Below, piece by piece: positions 27,124 through 56,794 of a stretch of 56,794 bases of DNA. A model generated the notes under the pieces. It saw nothing but the letters and a program-made list of their open reading frames with translations, did not search any database and had not been told where the DNA came from. Every line of letters begins with the position of its first letter. Position 1 is the stretch's first letter. The stretch is from a virus, in IMG/VR virus record IMGVR_UViG_3300032308_002493, positions 1 to 56,794 of that record. One strand, 5' to 3'. The position numbers and the translations under genes were made by a program.

Positions 27124-28098
27124 TCAGGCGTAGGCCCTGGCTGCTGCGGGCGGGACTGCTGAATCGCGGGCGGCAGGTTGCGGCGCACTGGCCGGTGCCG
27201 TGCCGCCAGGGGCTCCAGCAGGGCGAGCGCCAGCACCTATCCGGCGGATATTTTTGGCCGGCAACGGCGGCGGCTTGGGCAGATCACCCCCACCTGGTGG
27301 ACGGCCACCGTTTTGGCGACCACCACCACCACCTGTGGGGTTGCCATCGTCATCGGCATCCGCAGGAAGAATCCCCATAACCGACAAAATGCCCATTCGC
27401 TTGGCGGCAGTGCAAGCCGCAGACCACTTCTGCATGGGGCTCCACAGCTTGTTTTCCTTTTGCAGTAGCGGTACATCGCACCAAATAAACCCACCGGCAC
27501 TATGCACTAAATAAGTGCGGATCACAGAGTAATCAGCCATTACCACCTCTCGGTGGAAATGGCTGATTCCTTGGGAACCAGCGGTGCGGGCCAACGCGCT
27601 CACATCGCCAGGGGTGGCAAAATCGTAGCTGGTTTTTTTGCCGTCAAGAGTTTCAATTTTTGCCGTACCAGCTTTGCCTAGACCCGGGGCCGCGGCCTGC
27701 CATTCAGCCAGCGCGGTGAACAGCTGAGCAAGCTGCTCGGGCGAAGGGCGATAGCCCATCACCTCATCCGGTGCATCGTGAGGCCTGGCCGCGGCTGGCG
27801 GCAACTCTTGATCACTGCAATCCGTAGAGTGATTCAAGGCAGCAATCTGTTCTGCCAAGAGGCCTGTAACGCTGTCGAGGCTGCCAAAGCCTGCCTCTAT
27901 CTTTTTGAGCTGCGCCTTGACCGTTTCGGCCCAGACTCTCATCCCGTTAAGCCGGGCATCGGTGGCGGCCTGCTGTTCGGTCAACTCCAAGACCGATGTG
28001 ACCAAAGCCTGAGCCCTGGTTTTCGGAGCTGCTGGCTCTTCGGCCGCTTGGCAAAGCGGCGGCGGATCGGACGCCAATACACGCACTGGTTCATTCAT
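27124..28098 (-). CDS. ERF-like single-strand annealing protein
   Basis: A 324-residue protein. Residues ~120-245 follow the ERF pattern: a helix (QLAQLFTALAEWQAAAPGLG), a conserved lysine segment (KKTSYDFATPGDVSALARTAG), a beta part (VIRTYLVHSAGGFIWCDVPL), then SAACTAAKRMGILSVMGILP and the acidic DADDDG. ERF proteins anneal complementary strands in phage recombination. The C-terminal ~80 residues are Gly/Pro/Ala-rich, like the flexible tail of SSB-type partners. First gene of the leftward cluster that includes a small nuclease. Confidence 0.6.
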   Translation of the reverse strand: MNEPVRVLASDPPPLCQAAEEPAAPKTRAQALVTSVLELTEQQAATDARLNGMRVWAETVKAQLKKIEAGFGSLDSVTGLLAEQIAALNHSTDCSDQELPPAAARPHDAPDEVMGYRPSPEQLAQLFTALAEWQAAAPGLGKAGTAKIETLDGKKTSYDFATPGDVSALARTAGSQGISHFHREVVMADYSVIRTYLVHSAGGFIWCDVPLLQKENKLWSPMQKWSAACTAAKRMGILSVMGILPADADDDGNPTGGGGGRQNGGRPPGGGDLPKPPPLPAKNIRRIGAGARPAGAPGGTAPASAPQPAARDSAVPPAAARAYA

Positions 28099-34228: not shown

Positions 34229-34278
34229 CTGGGTCGAAAACGGCAGTCAAGCAAGCTTGAGGTGCGTTTTCGACCCAG
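34229..34278. other. Candidate attP: 50-bp nested palindrome beside the integrase
   Basis: Outer arms of 14 bases are perfectly inverted: CTGGGTCGAAAACG (34229-34242) and CGTTTTCGACCCAG (34265-34278). Inside, TCAAGC (34247-34252) and GCTTGA (34255-34260) are also inverted. The central dinucleotide is AA (34253-34254), which is asymmetric. This fits a serine integrase attP (about 50 bp, dyad, non-palindromic core) lying seven bases upstream of the integrase ATG. It might instead be an operator or transcript structure. Confidence 0.6.
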
Positions 34279-34285
34279 ATTCCAG

Positions 34286-35032
34286 ATGGCACCCAGGAGC
34301 CGCGCATCGTCTGCAGTCTCGGCGGCGATCGTGCCCACTGTGCCTCCTGCCGAGGGCGCAGCCGCAAATCCCAGGCCGGCTTTGGTGCCCATTGGCAACC
34401 TGGTGCTCGATGCCCGCAACGCCAGGCGCCGCACGCCCCGATCTGCAGACATGTTGGCGCACTCAATGGCGGAGTTTGGCGCTGCCCGTTCGATTGTGGT
34501 CGATGAAAACGGCCGGGTGTTGGCGGGCAACGGCACGGCGGAAGCGGCCAAAAATGCCGGCATAGACAGGGTTTTGTTCATTCCCAGCGATGGGAACACC
34601 CTGATCGCTGTGCAGCGGCTGGATCTGAGCGAGACCGAAAAAACCAGCCTGGCCTTGGCGGACAACCGCACCAGCGACACATCTGAATTTGACGGGGCCA
34701 TGCTCGCCCAGCTGGTGGAGGAGGATGCCCAGCTGGACATCTCCCCCTGGTTTTCCGAAGAGGAATTTGCCGCGCTGCTGGCCGGCGATCAGGTGGATGA
34801 GGAGGAGGAACCAGCACCCCCCAGCAAGCCCGATTCAGGGCTTGAGATCAAGCTGCAGTTCGCCAGCCAGGAGGAGTTCGATCGGTTTGGCTCCTTGTTG
34901 GTGCATCTGGCCGCCGCCCTGCCCGAGCCGGCGGAGCTGACCGGCCGGCTGGCCCTGGCAATCGAGGCCTACCTCGACCGGGGTGAGCGCCAGCGGCAGC
35001 GGCAGCGGCAGCGCCGGCAGCCCAGGGCATAG
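34286..35032 (+). CDS. ParB/Srx-like nuclease-domain protein
   Basis: A 248-residue protein from ATG 34286; a TTG at 34223 would extend the frame across the palindrome and is rejected. The N-terminal ParB-like domain shows VPIGNLVLDARNARRR, MAEFGAARSIVVDENGRVLA, GNGTAEAA and the C-terminal part LSLAD-type DNR (ALADNRTSD). Proteins of this class in phages often sit beside terminase or methylase genes and may nick or bind DNA. Acidic linker near residue 175, Arg/Gln-rich C-terminal tail. Divergent from the integrase. Confidence 0.65.
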   Translation: MAPRSRASSAVSAAIVPTVPPAEGAAANPRPALVPIGNLVLDARNARRRTPRSADMLAHSMAEFGAARSIVVDENGRVLAGNGTAEAAKNAGIDRVLFIPSDGNTLIAVQRLDLSETEKTSLALADNRTSDTSEFDGAMLAQLVEEDAQLDISPWFSEEEFAALLAGDQVDEEEEPAPPSKPDSGLEIKLQFASQEEFDRFGSLLVHLAAALPEPAELTGRLALAIEAYLDRGERQRQRQRQRRQPRA

Positions 35033-36440: not shown

Positions 36441-37904
36441 ATGGTATCGCTGATTGTTCGGCCGCCCAGCATCGTTGATTGGTATTCACCGGATCCGCTG
36501 ATTGGTGGCCCGGCCAAGGCCCAGCCCTGGGAGTCGCTGCCTGGGAAGTGGCCAGATTTTGCGGCGCAAACCCAGATCGCGTCGGGTGGCCGGCACATTC
36601 CGTTTATACCCTTTGCCGCTCAGCGGGAGCTGATAAAAATACACCGCAAGGTGCAAAACGTCTATGTACTGAAGAGCCGGCAGATTGGCATTTCCGAAGT
36701 GATAATCAATTACAAGCTTTGTCAAGCCTGCCGCCGGCCGGCCTGGACCGGTGTGGTGTTCTCCAAAACGGGCGATGACGCCAGCGAGCTGGCAGCCCGC
36801 ATCAAAGGGCAAGCCGCCTCGCTCCGCGATCGGTGCCCCAAATTCGCCAAAGATTCAGCCAGAAAGCTAGTTTTTGAAGGCTTCGGCTCGCTCCACTTCC
36901 TGCCCCCCACCGAGCGGGCCGCCAGGGGTATCCCCTCTGCTGCCTCGATCCTGTTTGACGAAGCGGCGTTCATCTCCAAGCTTGCCGGTATTGAGCAGGG
37001 CGCCCTGCCCTCCACTTCGCTGCTGGGCGACTTTGCCCGCCACCTGTGGGTCACAACCCCCAACGGCCGCAGCGGCACCTTCTCCGACCACTGGCACGCA
37101 GACCACGGGGAAGTGGTGGTGGACCCCACCCCCATGGGGGTTAATGGCATCCCCAGATTGCGCATCTCTCCCGACAATCAATACGCCAAGGTTTGTATTC
37201 ACTATTCCCAGCATCCGGTTTACGGCGTGGATCCGGATTGGGCAGAAAAGTTTCGCCGCAAGCGTCAGCTCAGCCAGCAGCAATGGCGCAGTGAATTTGA
37301 ACTGGATTTCACCGCTTCTGACTACGAGATATTTGCCCACGATCTGATTGAAGCCGCAGAGGCGGCCGGGGGCTGGGATGCCCCCACCTGGGGCCACAGC
37401 TATGTGCTGGGCATCGATCCCAATGGCGGTGGCGGCGATGCCTTCTGCGGCCTGGTGCTCGATGTAACCGAGAGCCCTTGGCGGGTGGTGGCCGGGTTCA
37501 ATGAATCTGGCTGCAGCCGCGACTACGGCCTGCAGCGCTGCGCCAGGCTGATTGATGAATACGGCCCCACGCTGGTGGCCGTGGAAAAAAACGGCGTCGG
37601 GGCGGCAGTGGCGGAGGCCCTGTGTCTACTGCGGCCCGGCACTGAGCTGGAGGAGATCTACACACTTGGCCCCAACAAAATCACAATGACCGATCGGCTG
37701 GTGTTGCTGCTGGAGCAGGGCGAGCTCACCATCCCACCCAACAGCTATGTGGGCAGCGAGATGCGCAATTTCCGCCAAACAGAAAAGGGCGACCGCAAAG
37801 CCGCCCCAGGTCACCATGATGATGCGGTAATGGCCCTGGCCATGGCCGGGCAAGCCGGCGCCAGGATCAGGCCCCTAACTAACAGCTGGATTTCAATGAT
37901 TTAG
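36441..37904 (+). CDS. Terminase large subunit
   Basis: A 487-residue packaging motor. The ATPase domain has a Walker A-like KSRQIGIS (residues ~78-85) and Walker B ILFDEAAF (Asp173, Glu174). Coupling motif VTTPNG is near 198. The RNase H-like nuclease domain has GIDPNGGG (Asp326), VAVEKNG and HHDDAVMA (Asp460/461). Both active sites appear intact. Adjacent small subunit and downstream portal (41189) make up the packaging module. Confidence 0.9.
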   Translation: MVSLIVRPPSIVDWYSPDPLIGGPAKAQPWESLPGKWPDFAAQTQIASGGRHIPFIPFAAQRELIKIHRKVQNVYVLKSRQIGISEVIINYKLCQACRRPAWTGVVFSKTGDDASELAARIKGQAASLRDRCPKFAKDSARKLVFEGFGSLHFLPPTERAARGIPSAASILFDEAAFISKLAGIEQGALPSTSLLGDFARHLWVTTPNGRSGTFSDHWHADHGEVVVDPTPMGVNGIPRLRISPDNQYAKVCIHYSQHPVYGVDPDWAEKFRRKRQLSQQQWRSEFELDFTASDYEIFAHDLIEAAEAAGGWDAPTWGHSYVLGIDPNGGGGDAFCGLVLDVTESPWRVVAGFNESGCSRDYGLQRCARLIDEYGPTLVAVEKNGVGAAVAEALCLLRPGTELEEIYTLGPNKITMTDRLVLLLEQGELTIPPNSYVGSEMRNFRQTEKGDRKAAPGHHDDAVMALAMAGQAGARIRPLTNSWISMI

Positions 37905-46617: not shown

Positions 46618-47352
46618 CTAAGGCGCTAGCCGTGCCTTAGCCCAGCGGTGCTGGTGATACCAGGCGGCGATTTCAGGGGCCCAACTTTGCAGGTGGGGCC
46701 ACATCAAATCGCAGAGCTGGCGAATTTCATCCTGGGCATCGAGCTTGGCCCGCAGGTCTAGGAAGTGCAGGAAGGCCCGCAGGCTGAAGCTCACCACAAA
46801 GTGTTGGCGAACGTCGAATGGAATTAACCCCCTGGCCTGCTCAAATGGCTCGCCAAGACAAACACTGAAGCGGTAGGAAAGGGCGGCTTCGTGGCAGCGC
46901 TTAACATCAAGGGCGCGCTTTTGGGTTGTGTATTCATAAGCCTTGCCGGAGTCTGGGTCTCTGTAAGTCCCCGCCGGCCTAATGTAAAACACATCTTCAA
47001 GGTCCAGCTCGCCTGTGGCAGCATCGCAGATGCGCACCCCCGTATAGCGTAGACTCTGCACATCGAACGAAACCCCGACCCGATGTGTGCGGGCCTGCTG
47101 CATCACGGAATGGGGAAACCAGCCCACGTTGAGTACGATCTGGCCGTGCTCCAGGGGCCCGTAGTGGCCGCGGTCGCCGGCCAATAGGCGCTTGACGCAG
47201 ATCTCGCCAGCCTTGGTTTCGTCAGGCCAACTGGCACGGCTATCGAATACAAAACCTTCGCTGTAGTCCTGGTGCATCGCCGCGTAGACGCACTGCTGGG
47301 GGTGGGGGGTGGCGGCGATCAGGTCAACTCTGAAGCGGGAATCCATGGTCAT
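46618..47352 (-). CDS. thyX: Flavin-dependent thymidylate synthase
   Basis: A 244-residue ThyX-like protein that makes dTMP from dUMP using FAD and methylene-tetrahydrofolate. The signature region (residues ~85-100) reads RTHRVGVSFDVQSLRYTG, a degenerate RHRx7S motif of the type seen in picocyanobacteria and their phages. GLIPFDVRQHFVVSFSLRAF and FLDLRAKLDAQDEIRQL match the conserved C-terminal region (RxxLPxxxxx and LxLR). It supports phage DNA synthesis. Overlaps the next minus gene by four bases. Confidence 0.85.
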   Translation of the reverse strand: MTMDSRFRVDLIAATPHPQQCVYAAMHQDYSEGFVFDSRASWPDETKAGEICVKRLLAGDRGHYGPLEHGQIVLNVGWFPHSVMQQARTHRVGVSFDVQSLRYTGVRICDAATGELDLEDVFYIRPAGTYRDPDSGKAYEYTTQKRALDVKRCHEAALSYRFSVCLGEPFEQARGLIPFDVRQHFVVSFSLRAFLHFLDLRAKLDAQDEIRQLCDLMWPHLQSWAPEIAAWYHQHRWAKARLAP

Positions 47353-47525
47353 TGTGCCACCTCCGAGCGATTACTAATGGCCTGAATACTGGGCGCAATC
47401 ACCACCGAAGCAAAGCCATATACGACCCAAACAAAAATTGACGCAAGAAGAAAAAGCTTAACAAGATGCCAAAGAATAGAGGAGAGCATTTGCCTAATCC
47501 ATGTGGGTGAGGTGGAATGCGCCAT
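47349..47525 (-). CDS. Small single-pass membrane protein
   Basis: About 58 residues from ATG 47525; an internal ATG at 47489, just after the upstream stop (47494), would give 46. One hydrophobic segment (LFLLASIFVWVVYGFASVVI) and a polar end. Stop overlaps the thyX ATG. Function unknown. Confidence 0.5.
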   Translation of the reverse strand: MAHSTSPTWIRQMLSSILWHLVKLFLLASIFVWVVYGFASVVIAPSIQAISNRSEVAQ

Positions 47526-48213
47526 GGGCAAGAAGGAGGCTGCTGCTGCGGCCTGATTGCAGCCAGTCGAGATAGCTTTGCGCCGGTGGCGTGAGCCGCA
47601 GCGATCGGCGGGCGTTGGGTTGCCAGTTCACCAAGCCGTTGTTGCGCAGCAATACCAGATCGCGGCAAGGGCACGAGTGGTTGCGATAGCCCAGAGCGTT
47701 GCTGAGATCATGCAGCGACGGAGCTTGTCCGATTTCGGCAAACCAAGCGAGCGTTTGCAGCAATCGGACTTGGCGCCTGTTGATTGGCGGTATGTAAGCC
47801 TGATTTGCATCAACTGGTGGCATGGGGGCCACCGTTCTGCCGTCGCCGTTAGGGTCTAAGCGGGCTTGCCTTAGGCGTTTTTGCAGAACATTGTCTGCTG
47901 TTTTTTGCCGCTCCTGGGGGTTGTAGGCGGTGGCCCCTTGCAAGGCAAACCAGTCGCGGCACTGAGGGGTAAGGCGCAGGGATCGCGGCAAGTGCGATTT
48001 CCATTCAATCCAGCCTTTGCTACGCAAGGCTTTCAGTTCGCGATTGGGGGCGGCTGTGGTGCGATAACCCAGCTGCAATGCCAGCTCCGCTCTGGTGGGC
48101 GGTTGGCCAGGGGCCAGCTGTTCATGCGCCCGTAGTGCCGCAAGCACTTGCTGCTCTGCCTTGGTAAGCGGCTGCAACGCCGTAGCGGACGTTGCGATCA
48201 GGGCAGTGCTCAC
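47494..48213 (-). CDS. DNA-binding protein with two winged-helix domains
   Basis: A 239-residue protein from GTG 48213, which overlaps the upstream stop (GTGA). Two LexA-N-terminal-like winged helices: first TRAELALQLGYRTTAAPNRE with LKALRSKGWIEWKSHLPRSL, second SLHDLSNALGYRNHSCPCRD with LVLLRNNGLVNWQPNARRSL; both end RSLRLTP. They are clear tandem paralogues, joined by a basic linker (QKRLRQARLDPNGDGR). It is likely a transcription regulator that could bind one dyad as a monomer; its target is unknown. Confidence 0.6.
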   Translation of the reverse strand: MSTALIATSATALQPLTKAEQQVLAALRAHEQLAPGQPPTRAELALQLGYRTTAAPNRELKALRSKGWIEWKSHLPRSLRLTPQCRDWFALQGATAYNPQERQKTADNVLQKRLRQARLDPNGDGRTVAPMPPVDANQAYIPPINRRQVRLLQTLAWFAEIGQAPSLHDLSNALGYRNHSCPCRDLVLLRNNGLVNWQPNARRSLRLTPPAQSYLDWLQSGRSSSLLLAHGAFHLTHMD

Positions 48214-48797
48214 CGCTTGAGCGCCTCCATCAACAGCTGGGCCTGCGATTGAAGCCAACGGGCCTCATCGCGCAATGCCTCTTCCTCTTTGGGGAACTTC
48301 ATGGCCATGGCGCCTCGGCCTTGGCCTGATGCCCGTTGCATCAGGCTTGCGCTTAACTCAAACCCTCCTTGGCTATTGATGCGGCCCACAAACTCCCATG
48401 GATGCTGGGCGGTATTGAGGGGCATGAACCTGGTATCGCGGCGCAACTCCACCACGGCACCGGCCAGAAAAGTGCTAGTTCCATCGCAGCGCTCGGCAAT
48501 GGGCGGCCTCTGAATGCGGATCTGCTCATTGCTAAAAGGGCGATCCAGCAGCCAGGCCCAGGGGCCAGACGTGGTGGTGCGCAACTGGCCGCTGATTTCG
48601 AGCGCCAGATATTTCAGCCAGCCGGATTGAGCCGGTGAAAGGCCGGCACGCTGGGTAGCCAGCTTGATTGCAAAATCTCCCACCTGCTGATGGGCGGCAT
48701 GGGCCTGAAGCACGATTCGCCGGGCGTCTGCATCGGTGAGATCGCAGTTGAATCTCACCGTTACGCCGGAGCGTCTTTCCAATTCAATGATGGGCAT
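48210..48797 (-). CDS. Unknown protein
   Basis: A 195-residue protein with helical N-terminus (LTDADARRIVLQAHAAHQQV), a beta-rich centre and a charged helical C-terminus (EEEALRDEARWLQSQAQLLM). Coupled to the winged-helix regulator by an overlapping GTGA. No family recognised. Confidence 0.5.
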   Translation of the reverse strand: MPIIELERRSGVTVRFNCDLTDADARRIVLQAHAAHQQVGDFAIKLATQRAGLSPAQSGWLKYLALEISGQLRTTTSGPWAWLLDRPFSNEQIRIQRPPIAERCDGTSTFLAGAVVELRRDTRFMPLNTAQHPWEFVGRINSQGGFELSASLMQRASGQGRGAMAMKFPKEEEALRDEARWLQSQAQLLMEALKR

Positions 48798-50838: not shown

Positions 50839-53800
50839 TTGCCATTGTTGACCCTCGCCCAGCTGGAAGTGCGACTGGCGCGGCTGGATGCCGCCAGCTC
50901 CAGGGCGGCGCCCCTGGCACCGGTGGCTGCGGCCGTTGCGCAATCGGCGGATACGGTGGCGCAGCTGCTGACCCAGGCGCTGGGGGAGCTGTTGCCGGGG
51001 GCTGCGGTGTTGAGCTGGGATCGGCGCCGGCCGGGCCTGGTGGCGGGGCAGATGGCAGCCGATGGGCTGGTGTTCCAGTTCCGCTGTGACGCCAATCAAA
51101 TTTCATATCGTCCCGCCTGGGATGGGCTGAGCCAGGGGCGATGGGAGGCCCGCAGCGCTGGCTTCCTGGCGGCCCGATCGCCAGGGCTGCGGCTCGATGC
51201 TCCAGGGGCTGGCGGCAAAAAGCGCTGCAGCAGGGGCTACGGCTGCGGCAACAGCTGCATCTCTCTGAAGAATGAATGCCGGCTAAAGGTGAGCTCGGCC
51301 GCCAGCAAAACGCGGCTGCAGCGGTTGCAGGCCCTCGCCAATGCCGGTGATGCCGCCGCCGGCACCCTGGCCGGGCAGGAACAGGCCAAGCGGAACTCCC
51401 AGGCCGCGGCCATCAAGGGCCAGCGCCAACAGGAGCGGGCTGCCAGGGCGCCCAAAACGCCCCCCAGCCTGGCGGGCCAGGTGCGGGTGGTGGCACCGGC
51501 CAGCATTGAGGTGGATCCCGAGCGGTTTCAGTTCAAGCTGGGCCATGGCGCCCAGGGAGAGGTGGGCTCCCTGCGAGGGGTGCGCAAGTGGGATGAGAAT
51601 TTGGCTGGGGTGGTGTCGGTTTGGCAGGACCCGGCGGATGGCAAAACCTATGTGGTGAATGGCCATAACCGGCTGGGGTTGGCCAAGCGCCACGGGGCGG
51701 AGGGGCTCACCGTGCGTTACCTCAAGGCTGCCTCGGCTGCAGAGGCGCGGGCGATCGGGGCGCTGCAAAACATTGCGGAAGGGGCCGGCACACCGGTGGA
51801 TGCCGCCAAGTTTTTTCGAGATAGCAATATCCGCAGCCAGACGGATGTGGAGAAGTTGGGTTTGCCGCTCAGCAGTGGCCGGGCGGCCCAGGGGCTGGGG
51901 TTGGCACGGCTGCCTGCAGAAATGTTCCGCTCGGTGGTGGACGGGGATCTGAGCGCCAGCCGTGGGGCAATCATCGGCAACTCAGGCCTTGATGGCCCAA
52001 AGATGAGCGAGATCGGCAAGTTGTTGCGGCAGCGCAAAAACATATCTGACGGCACATTGGCGGAGTTTGTGGAGGCCCTGGCCGTGAGCGAGCGGCAAAG
52101 CCAGCAAACATTTGATCTATTTGGCGCTAACGAAACGCTGGTGGATAACGGTCTGGCACGGGCTGAATTAACCAACGCAATTGCCAAAAAGATCAGCAAG
52201 GAGAAGCGACTATTTAAGATGGTGAGCAACTCCCAGGCGGCGGCCACCCTGGCGGAGAAGGCGGGCAATGTGATCAACAAGGGCGAGAGCGCCGAAGTGG
52301 CCAGTGCCGCCGATCAGCTGGGGCGCACCTTCAAGGCGCTCAAAAATGTGTCTGGCCCCATGGCCACCGCCATCAATGCCGCTGCCCAGCAGGTGAGCGA
52401 AGGAGCCAACAAAACAACGGTGCAACGCAAACTGTACGCGGAGGTGGTGGCCGCAATGGAGCTTGAATTCAAGGGCAAGCGCCGCGATGGCTGGGGCCAA
52501 AGCACCATTGATCGCTTTGCAGAGCTGGAAGCCCGCATTGATGCGGCCAAGAAGAAGTGCTCGACCGGCTACGGCTGCGGCAGCACCTGCATCAGCCTGC
52601 GCAAAGAATGCCGGGCCAGGCCGAGTAGCAGCATCGGAAAAGAGCGGCTGAAGCGGCTGTTGGCCTTGGCCGGCGGTGGAGTTTCTGACCAGCGGGGGAT
52701 CGCCCCGGTGCGGGCCGCCGAGGCCACGGCCCTGGCCGGAGCGCTTGAGCAGCGCCGGGAGGAGAAGGCCCAGCAACTGAAGGGCACCCGTCAAAAGGCC
52801 ACAGCGGATGATCTCGCTAAACGACTGATCAAGGCAGAAGCAAACCTGGCCGCAAAGAGCAAGATGCCTGCACCACCACCAGGCAATGGAAAGCCTGGTG
52901 TGAAGGTGGAGATCCAACGGGCCAAGCCAGGAGGTGAGTACGGGCCCGATGGCCACTGGTATCCAGGCGGCGCATGGATGAGCCAGGGCCAGTTTGTGGG
53001 AGGCAAAGAGCAGGCCCTTGGCAGTGGTGAGCAGCCGGCGTCAGCAACTGGCAAGGAAAACAGCGGCGCCAGCCAGCGGGTGATCAGGAACAAGGAAAAG
53101 CCCAGGAGGGAGCAACCAACCGAGCCCAAGGGGAAGGGACTGGATCAGCCTGTCGGGCTGAAGAAGACAGCGGCCAAGAACGATGAGGACTTCTTCAACG
53201 ACAGGGGCTTTGTTCTCTATCCCCGTCCAAAAGGCGCTGCAGGCCTGAATGGGCTTCTGTTCGACGCTGCAGTCATTCAGCGGATGTCGACAGAAGAGCT
53301 GGGCTGGGCAACGGATCAGATCCTGACCATGGGGAACGTCAAGCGGAGCGATCTGGGCGTTGTAAATGATCTGGAGAATGCCGCCACAAGGTTTGGCAGC
53401 GAAAAGGACTATCTCAACTACCAGAGGTCTTTTACCCGAAACCAGCTCATCGGCGTGGATGACAAAAGGTTCAAGGCCGGCCTGATCTTCATGGACGCCA
53501 GCCGCAACCTGGGCCACACCAGTCCAGCGCAGCAGCGCCTCCGCACCAGGCGCAAGACAACGGAAAACCCACCGGAGAGGAAGGGCGAGCAGGGGGACTG
53601 GGTCTGGGGCCTGAACAACGTGTTCCGCGCCGTGCAGCTTCGCCGGGATCGCATGGCAGCCCCCTCGGTGCTCACCAACCCCGGCCGCCAGGATCCCGGC
53701 CTGGCCTCCAAGGCCAAGCAGCCAGGCCTCAACGCCCAGGACGTGACCACCAGCACGCAACAAGCCGCCTTTGCTCGCCAGCAGCAGCAGGCGGCCAAGG

Positions 53801-55560
53801 CCGCCGGGGATCAATCCGGGGCACAGGCCTGGCGCAAAGAGGAGCGGACCGTGGAGCGCAACCGGCTGGCCACCGCCATCGGCCGCAACAAGCAGAGCCA
53901 GAGCTCGCTGTTTGGAGTGACCGAATACGACGAGACCATGCCGCTGTTCAAGAAGCGGGGCGACGGCCGCCGGCTGGATGCCGACATCCTCGAAGCCAGG
54001 ATCGATGCACTGCGTCGGAAGTGCCAGACCGGTTACAACTGCGGCAGTACCTGCATCAGCCTGCGGAAGGAATGCCGCAGCAGGCCAGGCAGCTCAATCA
54101 GCAAGGAGCGGCTCAAGCGGCTCCAGCAACTGGCCCGGGGCGAGGTGGCCCCCAGGGGGCTGGGGGTGCCCAGGGGCGCGGCAGCCACCGCCCTGGCCAC
54201 GGACATTCAGGGGCGGCGCAATGCCAGGGCGGCAGAGCTCACGGGGCAGCGGGCACAAGCCGGGCTTATCCCCACAGCGCTGCCGTTTAGCGATCAGATG
54301 GCCGCCCGGATCCGGAAGGGCATTGAGGAGCGCACCGCTACCACCGGCACCGTCAACTACGACGGCAAGGATTTGGCAGCGGCGATGATCAAGGCGGCCC
54401 AGTCGCCTCAGGTAGGCGAAAACATGCGCAAGGCCCTGGCCTTCATGGAAGAGGCCGGAATTATGACAAATATTGCCGCGAACAGCAATGAAGAGATTAA
54501 GCGGATAACTGGAAAGCCTGCCAGCGAACTGCCGTGGCAGCGGCCATTGGAACTTGCCAAGTTCGTACGTGATGCGGGGCTGGTGTCGGATGAAAGACTG
54601 GAATGGCTGAAGAAAGACCAGACTCAGGCCGGTCAGGCGGTGGTCCGGCGTGCAGAGATTGTTCGCAACCCACCAAAGCCCAGCAACGAAGAAAAGCAAG
54701 CAAAAGCCAACTACGAAAAATCAAAGGCTTACATAAAAGAGCAAGAGCAAGCATTTGATAGAAGCGTGCGCCAGGGCTGGAGATTTCCCGAGGACAAAAA
54801 AAGCTTTATGCAGGCCACCAAAAACATGACAGGCTTGGAGAACGATCGCAATCGCTATTTTGCGTATAGAGACGGCAGGTTGAATCAGATCAAGTGGGCA
54901 GTGCTAGAATTTGCCTGTGGCAAAGGGTTAGCAGGGCTTACGTCAAGCGAGAATGGTGGCTACTACTCTTTCGGGCAAAAAAAGTATGTGGCAGTCGCCG
55001 GCAATACGGACAAAAGCTGGGCTGGCGTTTACAAGGTTGACGAAAACAACACAGACCCAAGGAATATGCGAAGGCACTACGCCGAGCACATGGCAAAGCA
55101 CCTCCCGGACAGGCTCGCCGGGCTGTCTCAGACATCCGACAACTTCGACGTGCTCCACCAGCCTCTAGGGTTTAGCGGGAGGCAAACACACGCCGAAAAA
55201 ACCCTTAGCATCCATATCCATGAGCTGGGCCATGTCGTGGATAACTTTGCTGATGTGCGGGTCAGGGAGATCCCCGCAACCGCCGCTGGACCAAAACAAA
55301 TGGTGCTCTCCCATAATTTTCTTGAGCGAGTAGAGAAAAGGCCCGAGGCTGTTAAAAAAGCGCTTAGGGAGAAACGGGCGCCATCAAACTATGCTTTAAC
55401 CAACGCCGAAGAGCTGTTTGCCGAATCGTTTGCGGCTTGGGTGTTTGCCCCACGTGCATTGAAGCGGCATCACCCAGAACTGCATGCCTGGGTAGAGGAC
55501 CGATTTACAAGGGCACGTACTACCATGGCGAAGCATGGGCACCTAAGGTTTGAGGAGTAG
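50839..55560 (+). CDS. Giant modular effector: ParB-like, unknown and zinc-peptidase domains
   Basis: A 1573-residue polyvalent protein. Start is unclear: only TTG codons (50839 onward) are available; a 15-codon ORF from ATG 50787 lies just upstream. Order: N-terminal beta module (to ~105), Cys module at ~127-150, ParB-like domain around the GHNRLG motif (~275) with a helical extension to ~560, Cys module (Cys574), a GPDGHWYPGGAWM element (~705), an unknown domain (~780-980), Cys module (Cys1062), then a helical part and a C-terminal zincin with HELGH (1461-1465) and NAEELFAESFAAW (Glu1524/1529) as the likely third ligand. It should act in the newly infected cell if injected. Similar composites downstream of MuF are known as polyvalent proteins. 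Confidence 0.75.
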   Translation: MPLLTLAQLEVRLARLDAASSRAAPLAPVAAAVAQSADTVAQLLTQALGELLPGAAVLSWDRRRPGLVAGQMAADGLVFQFRCDANQISYRPAWDGLSQGRWEARSAGFLAARSPGLRLDAPGAGGKKRCSRGYGCGNSCISLKNECRLKVSSAASKTRLQRLQALANAGDAAAGTLAGQEQAKRNSQAAAIKGQRQQERAARAPKTPPSLAGQVRVVAPASIEVDPERFQFKLGHGAQGEVGSLRGVRKWDENLAGVVSVWQDPADGKTYVVNGHNRLGLAKRHGAEGLTVRYLKAASAAEARAIGALQNIAEGAGTPVDAAKFFRDSNIRSQTDVEKLGLPLSSGRAAQGLGLARLPAEMFRSVVDGDLSASRGAIIGNSGLDGPKMSEIGKLLRQRKNISDGTLAEFVEALAVSERQSQQTFDLFGANETLVDNGLARAELTNAIAKKISKEKRLFKMVSNSQAAATLAEKAGNVINKGESAEVASAADQLGRTFKALKNVSGPMATAINAAAQQVSEGANKTTVQRKLYAEVVAAMELEFKGKRRDGWGQSTIDRFAELEARIDAAKKKCSTGYGCGSTCISLRKECRARPSSSIGKERLKRLLALAGGGVSDQRGIAPVRAAEATALAGALEQRREEKAQQLKGTRQKATADDLAKRLIKAEANLAAKSKMPAPPPGNGKPGVKVEIQRAKPGGEYGPDGHWYPGGAWMSQGQFVGGKEQALGSGEQPASATGKENSGASQRVIRNKEKPRREQPTEPKGKGLDQPVGLKKTAAKNDEDFFNDRGFVLYPRPKGAAGLNGLLFDAAVIQRMSTEELGWATDQILTMGNVKRSDLGVVNDLENAATRFGSEKDYLNYQRSFTRNQLIGVDDKRFKAGLIFMDASRNLGHTSPAQQRLRTRRKTTENPPERKGEQGDWVWGLNNVFRAVQLRRDRMAAPSVLTNPGRQDPGLASKAKQPGLNAQDVTTSTQQAAFARQQQQAAKAAGDQSGAQAWRKEERTVERNRLATAIGRNKQSQSSLFGVTEYDETMPLFKKRGDGRRLDADILEARIDALRRKCQTGYNCGSTCISLRKECRSRPGSSISKERLKRLQQLARGEVAPRGLGVPRGAAATALATDIQGRRNARAAELTGQRAQAGLIPTALPFSDQMAARIRKGIEERTATTGTVNYDGKDLAAAMIKAAQSPQVGENMRKALAFMEEAGIMTNIAANSNEEIKRITGKPASELPWQRPLELAKFVRDAGLVSDERLEWLKKDQTQAGQAVVRRAEIVRNPPKPSNEEKQAKANYEKSKAYIKEQEQAFDRSVRQGWRFPEDKKSFMQATKNMTGLENDRNRYFAYRDGRLNQIKWAVLEFACGKGLAGLTSSENGGYYSFGQKKYVAVAGNTDKSWAGVYKVDENNTDPRNMRRHYAEHMAKHLPDRLAGLSQTSDNFDVLHQPLGFSGRQTHAEKTLSIHIHELGHVVDNFADVRVREIPATAAGPKQMVLSHNFLERVEKRPEAVKKALREKRAPSNYALTNAEELFAESFAAWVFAPRALKRHHPELHAWVEDRFTRARTTMAKHGHLRFEE
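51217..51288 (+). repeat. Cys module 1 of the giant protein
   Basis: KKRCSRGYGCGNSCISLKNE then CR. Followed by a basic helix (TRLQRLQALANAG) that replaces the usual KERLKRL element. Confidence 0.75.
52521..52656 (+). repeat. Cys module 2 of the giant protein with linker
   Basis: ELEARIDAAKKKC leader, four-cysteine core and KERLKRLLALA helix. Nearly identical in DNA to the minus-strand copy at the left edge over about 40 bases of the core. Confidence 0.8.
53989..54172 (+). repeat. Cys module 3 of the giant protein with full tail
   Basis: LEARIDALRRKC leader, core, SISKERLKRLQQLARGE helix and a PRGLGVP tail. Thirty bases (ending in CCCCCAGGGGG) are identical with the copy at 55978-56175. Confidence 0.8.
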
Positions 55561-55567
55561 CGCTGAG

Positions 55568-55912
55568 ATGGCCGGCGACATAAAGGATGCCCAGGCATTG
55601 ATAACAGGCATGAACGGAAAGTTAGATCGTTCTGCTGTTGTTCGTTGGGCTGCAATCAAAAACAAAGCTACAGGCCGGGAGCGAGAGGCAATTTCCTGGA
55701 TGGCTGAAGCCTTTGGCCCCATGACAAAAACAGAGGAAGACCGCCGCTGGCTGTCAAGTTTCCTTAGTGGGATCCCTGAATCAGCGCCAAAAAAGAGCAC
55801 CCGCGGCGATGGTGTTGGCCACCAAAGCCCAGGCGATCGACTTGCCGAGCTGGAGACGCGAATTGATGCTGTCAGTAAGGCCAACGGCTCCAGGCCGCCG
55901 CTGCAGCAGTGA
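55568..55912 (+). CDS. Small protein ending in an orphan module leader; possible partner of the peptidase
   Basis: A 114-residue protein from ATG 55568, eight bases after the peptidase stop. Helical N-terminal half (DAQALITGMNGKLDRSAVVR, ISWMAEAFGPMTKTEEDRRW). Its C-terminus reads DRLAELETRIDAVSKANG, the usual leader of the Cys module, but stops where the cysteines should begin. It may be an immunity or regulatory protein for the preceding peptidase, or a cassette that lost its module by recombination. Confidence 0.5.
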   Translation: MAGDIKDAQALITGMNGKLDRSAVVRWAAIKNKATGREREAISWMAEAFGPMTKTEEDRRWLSSFLSGIPESAPKKSTRGDGVGHQSPGDRLAELETRIDAVSKANGSRPPLQQ

Positions 55913-55953
55913 AGCCCACCCCCCGCCGCCGGCAACTGCCCAAGGGCTGATCC

Positions 55954-56794
55954 ATGGCGGTGAGCACTGACATCAATGCCCGGTTTGCAGCCCTCGGGGC
56001 CCGCATCGATGCGGCGCGGAAGCGCTGCGGCACCGGTTACAGCTGCGGCAACAGCTGCATCAGCCTTCAGAAGGAATGCAGGGCCAGGCCTGGCAGCGCG
56101 ATCAGCAAGGAGCGGATTCAGCGGCTTCAGCAGCTGGCCCGGGGCGAGGTGGCCCCCAGGGGGTTAGGTGTGCCTGGGCAGACGGCCGCGGCGGCCATGG
56201 CTGCCAGCCTTCACGGCCAGCGCAGCCAAAGGGCCGTTGAACTGCAGGCCAAGCGGCAAGCGAGGGCTCGCCAGTCCGCTCCAGTGGCGGCGATCACGGC
56301 GGCCGAGATAAAGCGGGCCTTCCCGCTGCCCACCGCCCAACAGCGCCAGCAGCGCGATCAGCTGCAAAACGCCACCAACCTGGCCGCAGCCGAACGCCAG
56401 GCGGTTTTCGATTACAGCGCCACCACCAGAGGGCCTCGGGCGGCATCAGCGCTCAACCGCTGCCTGCGACAACCGGCCAGCTGCCGCCAGAAAAAGGCCA
56501 CCGCCGCCATGGCAACAGATTTTGATGCCGCATTGCAAAAATTACCCAAGAACATAGAAGGTGCCCCTTTTTATCGGGGCATAGCAGTAAAAGACAGCAA
56601 TATGCAACGCCTGTATCAACAATTGCTCAAGGCTCGGCCTGGTGAGCGGTTTGCGGATCAGGGTTACGGCTCCTACTCCGACGACCGGCGAGTGGCGGCC
56701 ATCTATGCGGAGGCCAATGGCCCCGCCCCAGCGATCGTGTTGGTGAGCCGCAGCCAGGCCATCACCGGCATCAGTGCCATCTCCGGCTACCGCA
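55954..56794 (+). CDS. Cys-module ADP-ribosyltransferase, truncated by the window end
   Basis: From ATG 55954 the frame is open to the window end (280 residues seen). Leader and Cys module (residues ~8-50), helix ISKERIQRLQQLARGE and PRGLGVP tail, Gln/Arg-rich linker, then an ART-like domain from about residue 190: GAPFYRGIAV with the NAD-binding arginine, ERFADQGYGSYSDDRRVA resembling the STS strand, and PAIVLVSRS. The catalytic E-x-E lies beyond the end. RSE-class ARTs modify host proteins. It is the third different catalytic domain behind the same module. Confidence 0.65.
   Translation, partial: MAVSTDINARFAALGARIDAARKRCGTGYSCGNSCISLQKECRARPGSAISKERIQRLQQLARGEVAPRGLGVPGQTAAAAMAASLHGQRSQRAVELQAKRQARARQSAPVAAITAAEIKRAFPLPTAQQRQQRDQLQNATNLAAAERQAVFDYSATTRGPRAASALNRCLRQPASCRQKKATAAMATDFDAALQKLPKNIEGAPFYRGIAVKDSNMQRLYQQLLKARPGERFADQGYGSYSDDRRVAAIYAEANGPAPAIVLVSRSQAITGISAISGYR
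55978..56175 (+). repeat. Cys module of the ADP-ribosyltransferase
   Basis: ARIDAARKRC leader, core with GTGYS, NS and SLQKE gaps, then the same helix and PRGLGVP tail as the copy at 53989-54172. High DNA identity suggests recent duplication or gene conversion. Confidence 0.8.

Follow-up and report, generated by a model that had tools for sequence, protein, structure and literature searches.

Most attachment sites of serine integrases need 35–55 bp, and in the Listeria phage A118 the minimal attP, an imperfect palindrome of 50 bp, undergoes exchange at its central 2 bp (PMC3556126). In the structure of the LI integrase of L. innocua, 25 bp are contacted per attP half-site and the zinc-ribbon motif is located at positions 16–24 (PMC3783163). 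For unicellular cyanobacteria, lysogeny itself has been described as rare (PMC6157547). The DNA analyzed here, a viral contig of 56,794 nucleotides (IMG/VR record IMGVR_UViG_3300032308_002493; hereafter the window), contains a dyad beside the start of a serine integrase gene, which is very probably the attP of this integrase, as its size (about 50 bp), its symmetry (an imperfect palindrome), its central dinucleotide and its position match those of serine-integrase attP sites (compared with PMC3556126; Table 1).

Table 1. Location of the candidate attachment site, its predicted parts and the neighboring genes in the window.
Feature	Position	Strand	Basis
Candidate attP dyad	34229..34278	.	Repeat search and dyad scan; conservation in L003 and L004; junction of a related element at the same place
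Predicted crossover dinucleotide AA, dyad centre	34253..34254	+	Sequence; kept in L004; function predicted from A118 (PMC3556126)
Outer arm, integrase-proximal half-site; predicted contact of zinc-ribbon domain and linker	34229..34242	+	Sequence; predicted by comparison with the LI integrase-attP structure (PMC3783163)
Outer arm, distal half-site; perfect inverted copy of 34229–34242	34265..34278	-	Sequence
Inner arms TCAAGC-AA-GCTTGA; predicted recombinase-domain contact	34247..34260	.	Sequence; contact predicted
Large serine integrase P0001, 451 aa	32867..34222	-	Pfam PF00239 and PF13408; phrog_95 integrase; PDB fold matches
ParB-like gene, divergent from the integrase gene	34286..35032	+	phrog_620 and others; tblastn match to Planktothrix phage PaV-LD
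Terminase large subunit, far side of the dyad	36441..37904	+	Profile matches; phage gene at this place, hence an unsplit site

The dyad is built from two 24-nt arms (34229–34252 and 34255–34278; 83% complementary) with AA between them, and its layout is CTGGGTCGAAAACG-GCAG-TCAAGC-AA-GCTTGA-GGTG-CGTTTTCGACCCAG. The nesting is exact, with perfect outer arms of 14 bp (CTGGGTCGAAAACG) being followed by four mismatched positions and then by perfect inner arms of 6 bp (TCAAGC/GCTTGA). This confirms the first-pass annotation, which had described a nested 50-bp palindrome with AA at its exact centre beside the integrase start. In a dyad scan the site was the top dyad of the window at this size, with 20 of the 24 arm positions being paired, whereas the best dyad in each of four Markov-simulated windows reached 17 of 24. 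None of 200,000 shuffled versions of the 50-mer reached 20 paired positions. If the half-site numbering of the LI integrase is applied, the inner arms correspond to positions 2–7 and the perfect outer arms to positions 12–25; the latter span the entire zinc-ribbon motif along with a portion of the linker. The dyad ranking second in the window (27525–27575; 19/24) is located inside an ORF (27124–28098) and forms a strong predicted RNA hairpin.

The integrase P0001 exhibits an N-terminal Resolvase catalytic domain (PF00239; residues 8–147; E 2.4e-22) with the serine motif RVS at residues 13–15, as well as a recombinase domain and a C-terminal zinc ribbon (PF13408; E 3.7e-7). Helices at residues 320–392, which likely form a coiled-coil insertion, were predicted by a structure model of medium confidence (pLDDT 64.5). 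These are the features of a large serine recombinase, and the PDB fold matches were dominated by the phiC31, LI and related serine integrases. By sequence and modeled fold, P0001 is thus a large serine recombinase of the phage integrase type. Only 6 bases separate its start codon from the dyad, which has its centre 31 bp upstream of this start and takes up 50 bp of the 63-bp stretch that separates the start of the integrase gene from that of the divergent ParB-like gene (ATG at 34286). The ParB side also carries genes for the portal and a Mu F-like head protein, and the start of the contig holds genes for the head maturation protease, the major capsid protein and presumed tail proteins. As the relatives of terminase and portal include cyanophages (best portal match: Synechococcus phage S-CBS4, 39%), the host of the phage is probably a picocyanobacterium. 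Between the head genes, a protein with a LexA-type DNA-binding domain (47494–48258), which may act as a lysogeny repressor, and the thymidylate synthase ThyX (46618–47352) are both encoded on the minus strand. A further ORF (50839–55560) encodes 1573 aa; its C-terminus matches peptidase M90, and an ATLF metallopeptidase domain scored below the curated cut-off.

Two close relatives of the window phage were recognized by their integrases, which are 99% (L003) and 96% (L004) identical to P0001. The dyad is fully conserved in L003 and conserved at 48 of 50 positions (96%) in L004, in which one internal change adjoins the core and AA is kept. In the latter contig, the identity drops to 62% in the 50 bp that follow toward the ParB-like gene and to 86% in the first 50 bp of the integrase gene. 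As the non-coding site is better conserved than its coding neighbors, the dyad is probably under selection. The site is uninterrupted in three related phage contigs. IMG/VR classes the virus record of the window as linear. In G002, the record to which L004 belongs, a match to the end of the window (55890–56794) is joined to a match to its start (from position 327), with approximately 1.8 kb between the two. The window ends thus lie next to each other in this relative, and the contig was not opened at the dyad. Both observations support the earlier suggestion of a free or circular phage and would suit a phage genome that is free or circularly permuted, although they are no proof of the state in which the DNA was present in the sample. 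Near the ends of the contig (1–75 and about 56032–56106) imperfect inverted repeats are located (85% over 75 bp), and comparisons with G002 unveiled related stretches at 51–54 kb. These inverted repeats may explain the break point of the assembly.

Further support for the attP assignment comes from a more distant relative. A family search centred on a Cyanobium genome yielded a full-length integrase with 42% identity to P0001 in genome G231, which belongs to the same genus as the named Cyanobium genomes in the set. Its gene starts just upstream of htpG and is part of an element of approximately 9.1 kb (L244, 564–9675), which has integrated between a ferredoxin gene and htpG, at the 5′ end of the latter. 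Across the genus, the start of htpG could be matched in 42 genomes, and 30 of these were read in sequence. In relatives with an empty site the two genes are adjacent; there, the ferredoxin gene is followed by ATGACGGTGCTGGAACAGGGCCAGATTCAGATCC and the core region reads ATGACGGTGCTGGAACAGGGCCAGATTCAG. The junctions of the element are ATGACGGTGCTGGAG-CAGGGCCAGAT-GTAGGTGATGGGGGGCACTGT on the ferredoxin side and ACAGTGCTCCAGACGATA-CAGGGCCAGAT-TCAGATCC on the integrase side. Both ends thus have the 11 bp CAGGGCCAGAT in common, 35–45 bp upstream of the integrase start, and the junction sequences place the crossover within this overlap. As this is where the window has its dyad, the relative supports the attP assignment. 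The first-pass annotation, which had proposed the dyad as a candidate attP and had named attachment junctions lying elsewhere in related prophages as counter-evidence, is supported by the position of the junction in this 42% identical relative and by the dyad of the window having the length and symmetry of a published minimal attP. When rejoined, the phage-side halves of the element read ACAGTGCTCCAGACGATACAGGGCCAGATGTAGGTGATGGGGGGCACTGT, i.e., 50 bp between the arms ACAGTGC and GCACTGT with the overlap across the centre. The symmetry of this dyad is weak (13/24; p about 0.14 over all registers, with the register having been picked after the junctions were seen), and therefore the position of the junction, and not a palindrome, is the evidence.

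The element of G231 encodes, besides the serine integrase, a Prim-Pol/D5-type primase, an excisionase-like regulator, a small terminase and a capsid-protease fusion. Neither a portal nor a tail gene was seen within its 9.1 kb, and it is possibly a capsid-forming phage satellite. The htpG gene stays in frame with a new start supplied by the phage. A wholly host-derived 5′ end of htpG was considered, since some genomes (e.g., L265) have longer natural N-termini, and was rejected as the ferredoxin-side junction is also present.

The course of the reaction, from integrase binding and cleavage at AA to the host partner, is inferred. The two 25-bp half-sites of the dyad would be occupied by an integrase dimer, whose recombinase domains would contact the inner TCAAGC arms and whose linkers and zinc-ribbon domains would contact the outer arms of 14 bp. 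The attP would then pair with the attB of the host, and cuts on either side of the central AA would be followed by rotation within the tetramer and rejoining. In the resulting prophage, the integrase gene and the ParB/terminase side would occupy opposite ends. AA is likely the crossover dinucleotide. A crossover at another place within the attP, e.g., two bases away in the 8-bp palindrome CAAGCTTG (34252–34259) which overlaps the dyad centre, would agree with the element of G231, as this narrows the crossover to the 11-bp overlap and no further. Such a crossover appears unlikely, however, since all arms are centred exactly on AA, and L004 retains AA but has a broken CAAGCTTG.

The dyad might also be an operator at which a dimeric regulator (the integrase, the ParB-like protein or a repressor) acts on divergent int and parB promoters, with the attP being located elsewhere. 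With only 63 bp between the divergent start codons any promoter must overlap the dyad, and perfect inverted repeats are common among operators. Yet operators tend to be shorter than 50 bp, a site of this length with a 2-bp centre fits the footprint of an integrase, further copies of the arm do not exceed chance in the window, no sigma-70-like promoter was found, and the junctions in G231 fall at the same place, all of which makes an operator quite improbable. A role of the dyad as an RNA hairpin, for termination or processing in the divergent gene pair, is highly improbable despite the strong predicted fold on either strand (z -5.7 and -6.5), as good RNA folding is to be expected of every long DNA dyad, the dyad lies between gene starts and not behind gene ends, and a terminator-like T run is absent. 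With the dyad regarded as attP, its unusually perfect arms could serve a dual purpose, with the integrase bound at attP also repressing the divergent int and parB promoters, although this appears doubtful. If true, integration would not only insert the phage but, by separating the half-sites, also change how both genes are controlled.

The search of cyanobacterial genomes for prophage ends, which the first-pass annotation had suggested, yielded junctions for a relative. A split of the site into attL and attR was seen for the relative in G231 alone, and no lysogen of the window phage or of a close relative, with attL/attR or attB, was found in family and order searches, which sampled approximately 400 genomes of the larger groups and in which absence is weak evidence. 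When genome contigs were first scanned with peptides of the integrase, no relative was obtained; plasmids yielded no integrase match, and phages yielded a single weak and partial one. The core pattern of the window, when scanned against 42 genomes of the Cyanobium group, gave matches little above the reversed-pattern control and no convincing common attB. Among viral contigs, long half-site patterns matched just the two close relatives already known, the 14-bp arm alone being too short as a search pattern. htpG was considered as attB of the window phage but not adopted, as the dyad centre does not match CAGGGCCAGAT. A tRNA gene as attB was rejected, since neither the window nor the junctions of the relatives contain one.

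Additional relatives of the integrase were found in another genus and in phage contigs. Genome G057 carries a decayed integrase relative (47% identity over 98 residues) which also abuts htpG, together with the 14-bp integrase-side arm of G231, GACAGTGCTCCAGA. A second junction was searched for in this genome and not found; the ferredoxin homolog is located on another contig. The phage contigs L280 and L281, whose integrases are 40% and 43% identical to P0001, have AGCTGTAA in common, 29 bp upstream of the integrase start codons, with otherwise differing flanks. Upstream of these integrase genes there are weak dyads and no strong one, which counts against the attP reading of the window dyad. 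The shared AGCTGTAA fits with an attachment core at the same place, which is not a proof.

The mechanism of serine integrases itself is well known, and what is added here is a further example, probably from a cyanobacterial phage. Phage integration in picocyanobacteria is little documented in the open-access literature. A serine integrase with a defined candidate attP, together with a related element for which both junctions in htpG are available, constitutes a directly testable picocyanobacterial integration system, which could become a genetic tool and a marker for finding lysogens.

The documented freshwater example, the Synechococcus siphovirus S-LBS1, infects picocyanobacteria, the probable hosts of the window phage, and likewise carries an integrase together with proposed attachment sites; its integrase, however, is a lambda-like tyrosine recombinase, unlike the large serine recombinase described here (PMC6157547). 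The htpG element of G231 shares with the window the related integrase and a junction immediately upstream of its gene, whereas it differs in its small size, its gene content and its attP sequence, and probably also in its host site. The integrases of the phiC31 type from Streptomyces phages belong to the same enzyme class, and the best fold match of P0001 is the phiC31 integrase bound to attL, but the similarity is at the level of the fold only (16% identity), and phage and host are unrelated. For A118 and LI, the integrase has the same Resolvase, recombinase and zinc-ribbon domains as P0001, and no recognisable similarity between the sequences of the sites was noted. The attP of A118 and LI is, like the dyad in the window, a 50-bp imperfect palindrome, and its 25-bp half-sites and central 2-bp crossover correspond to those predicted for the dyad, whereas the outer arms of the window dyad form a perfect 14-bp repeat and the phage that carries them is probably a cyanophage.
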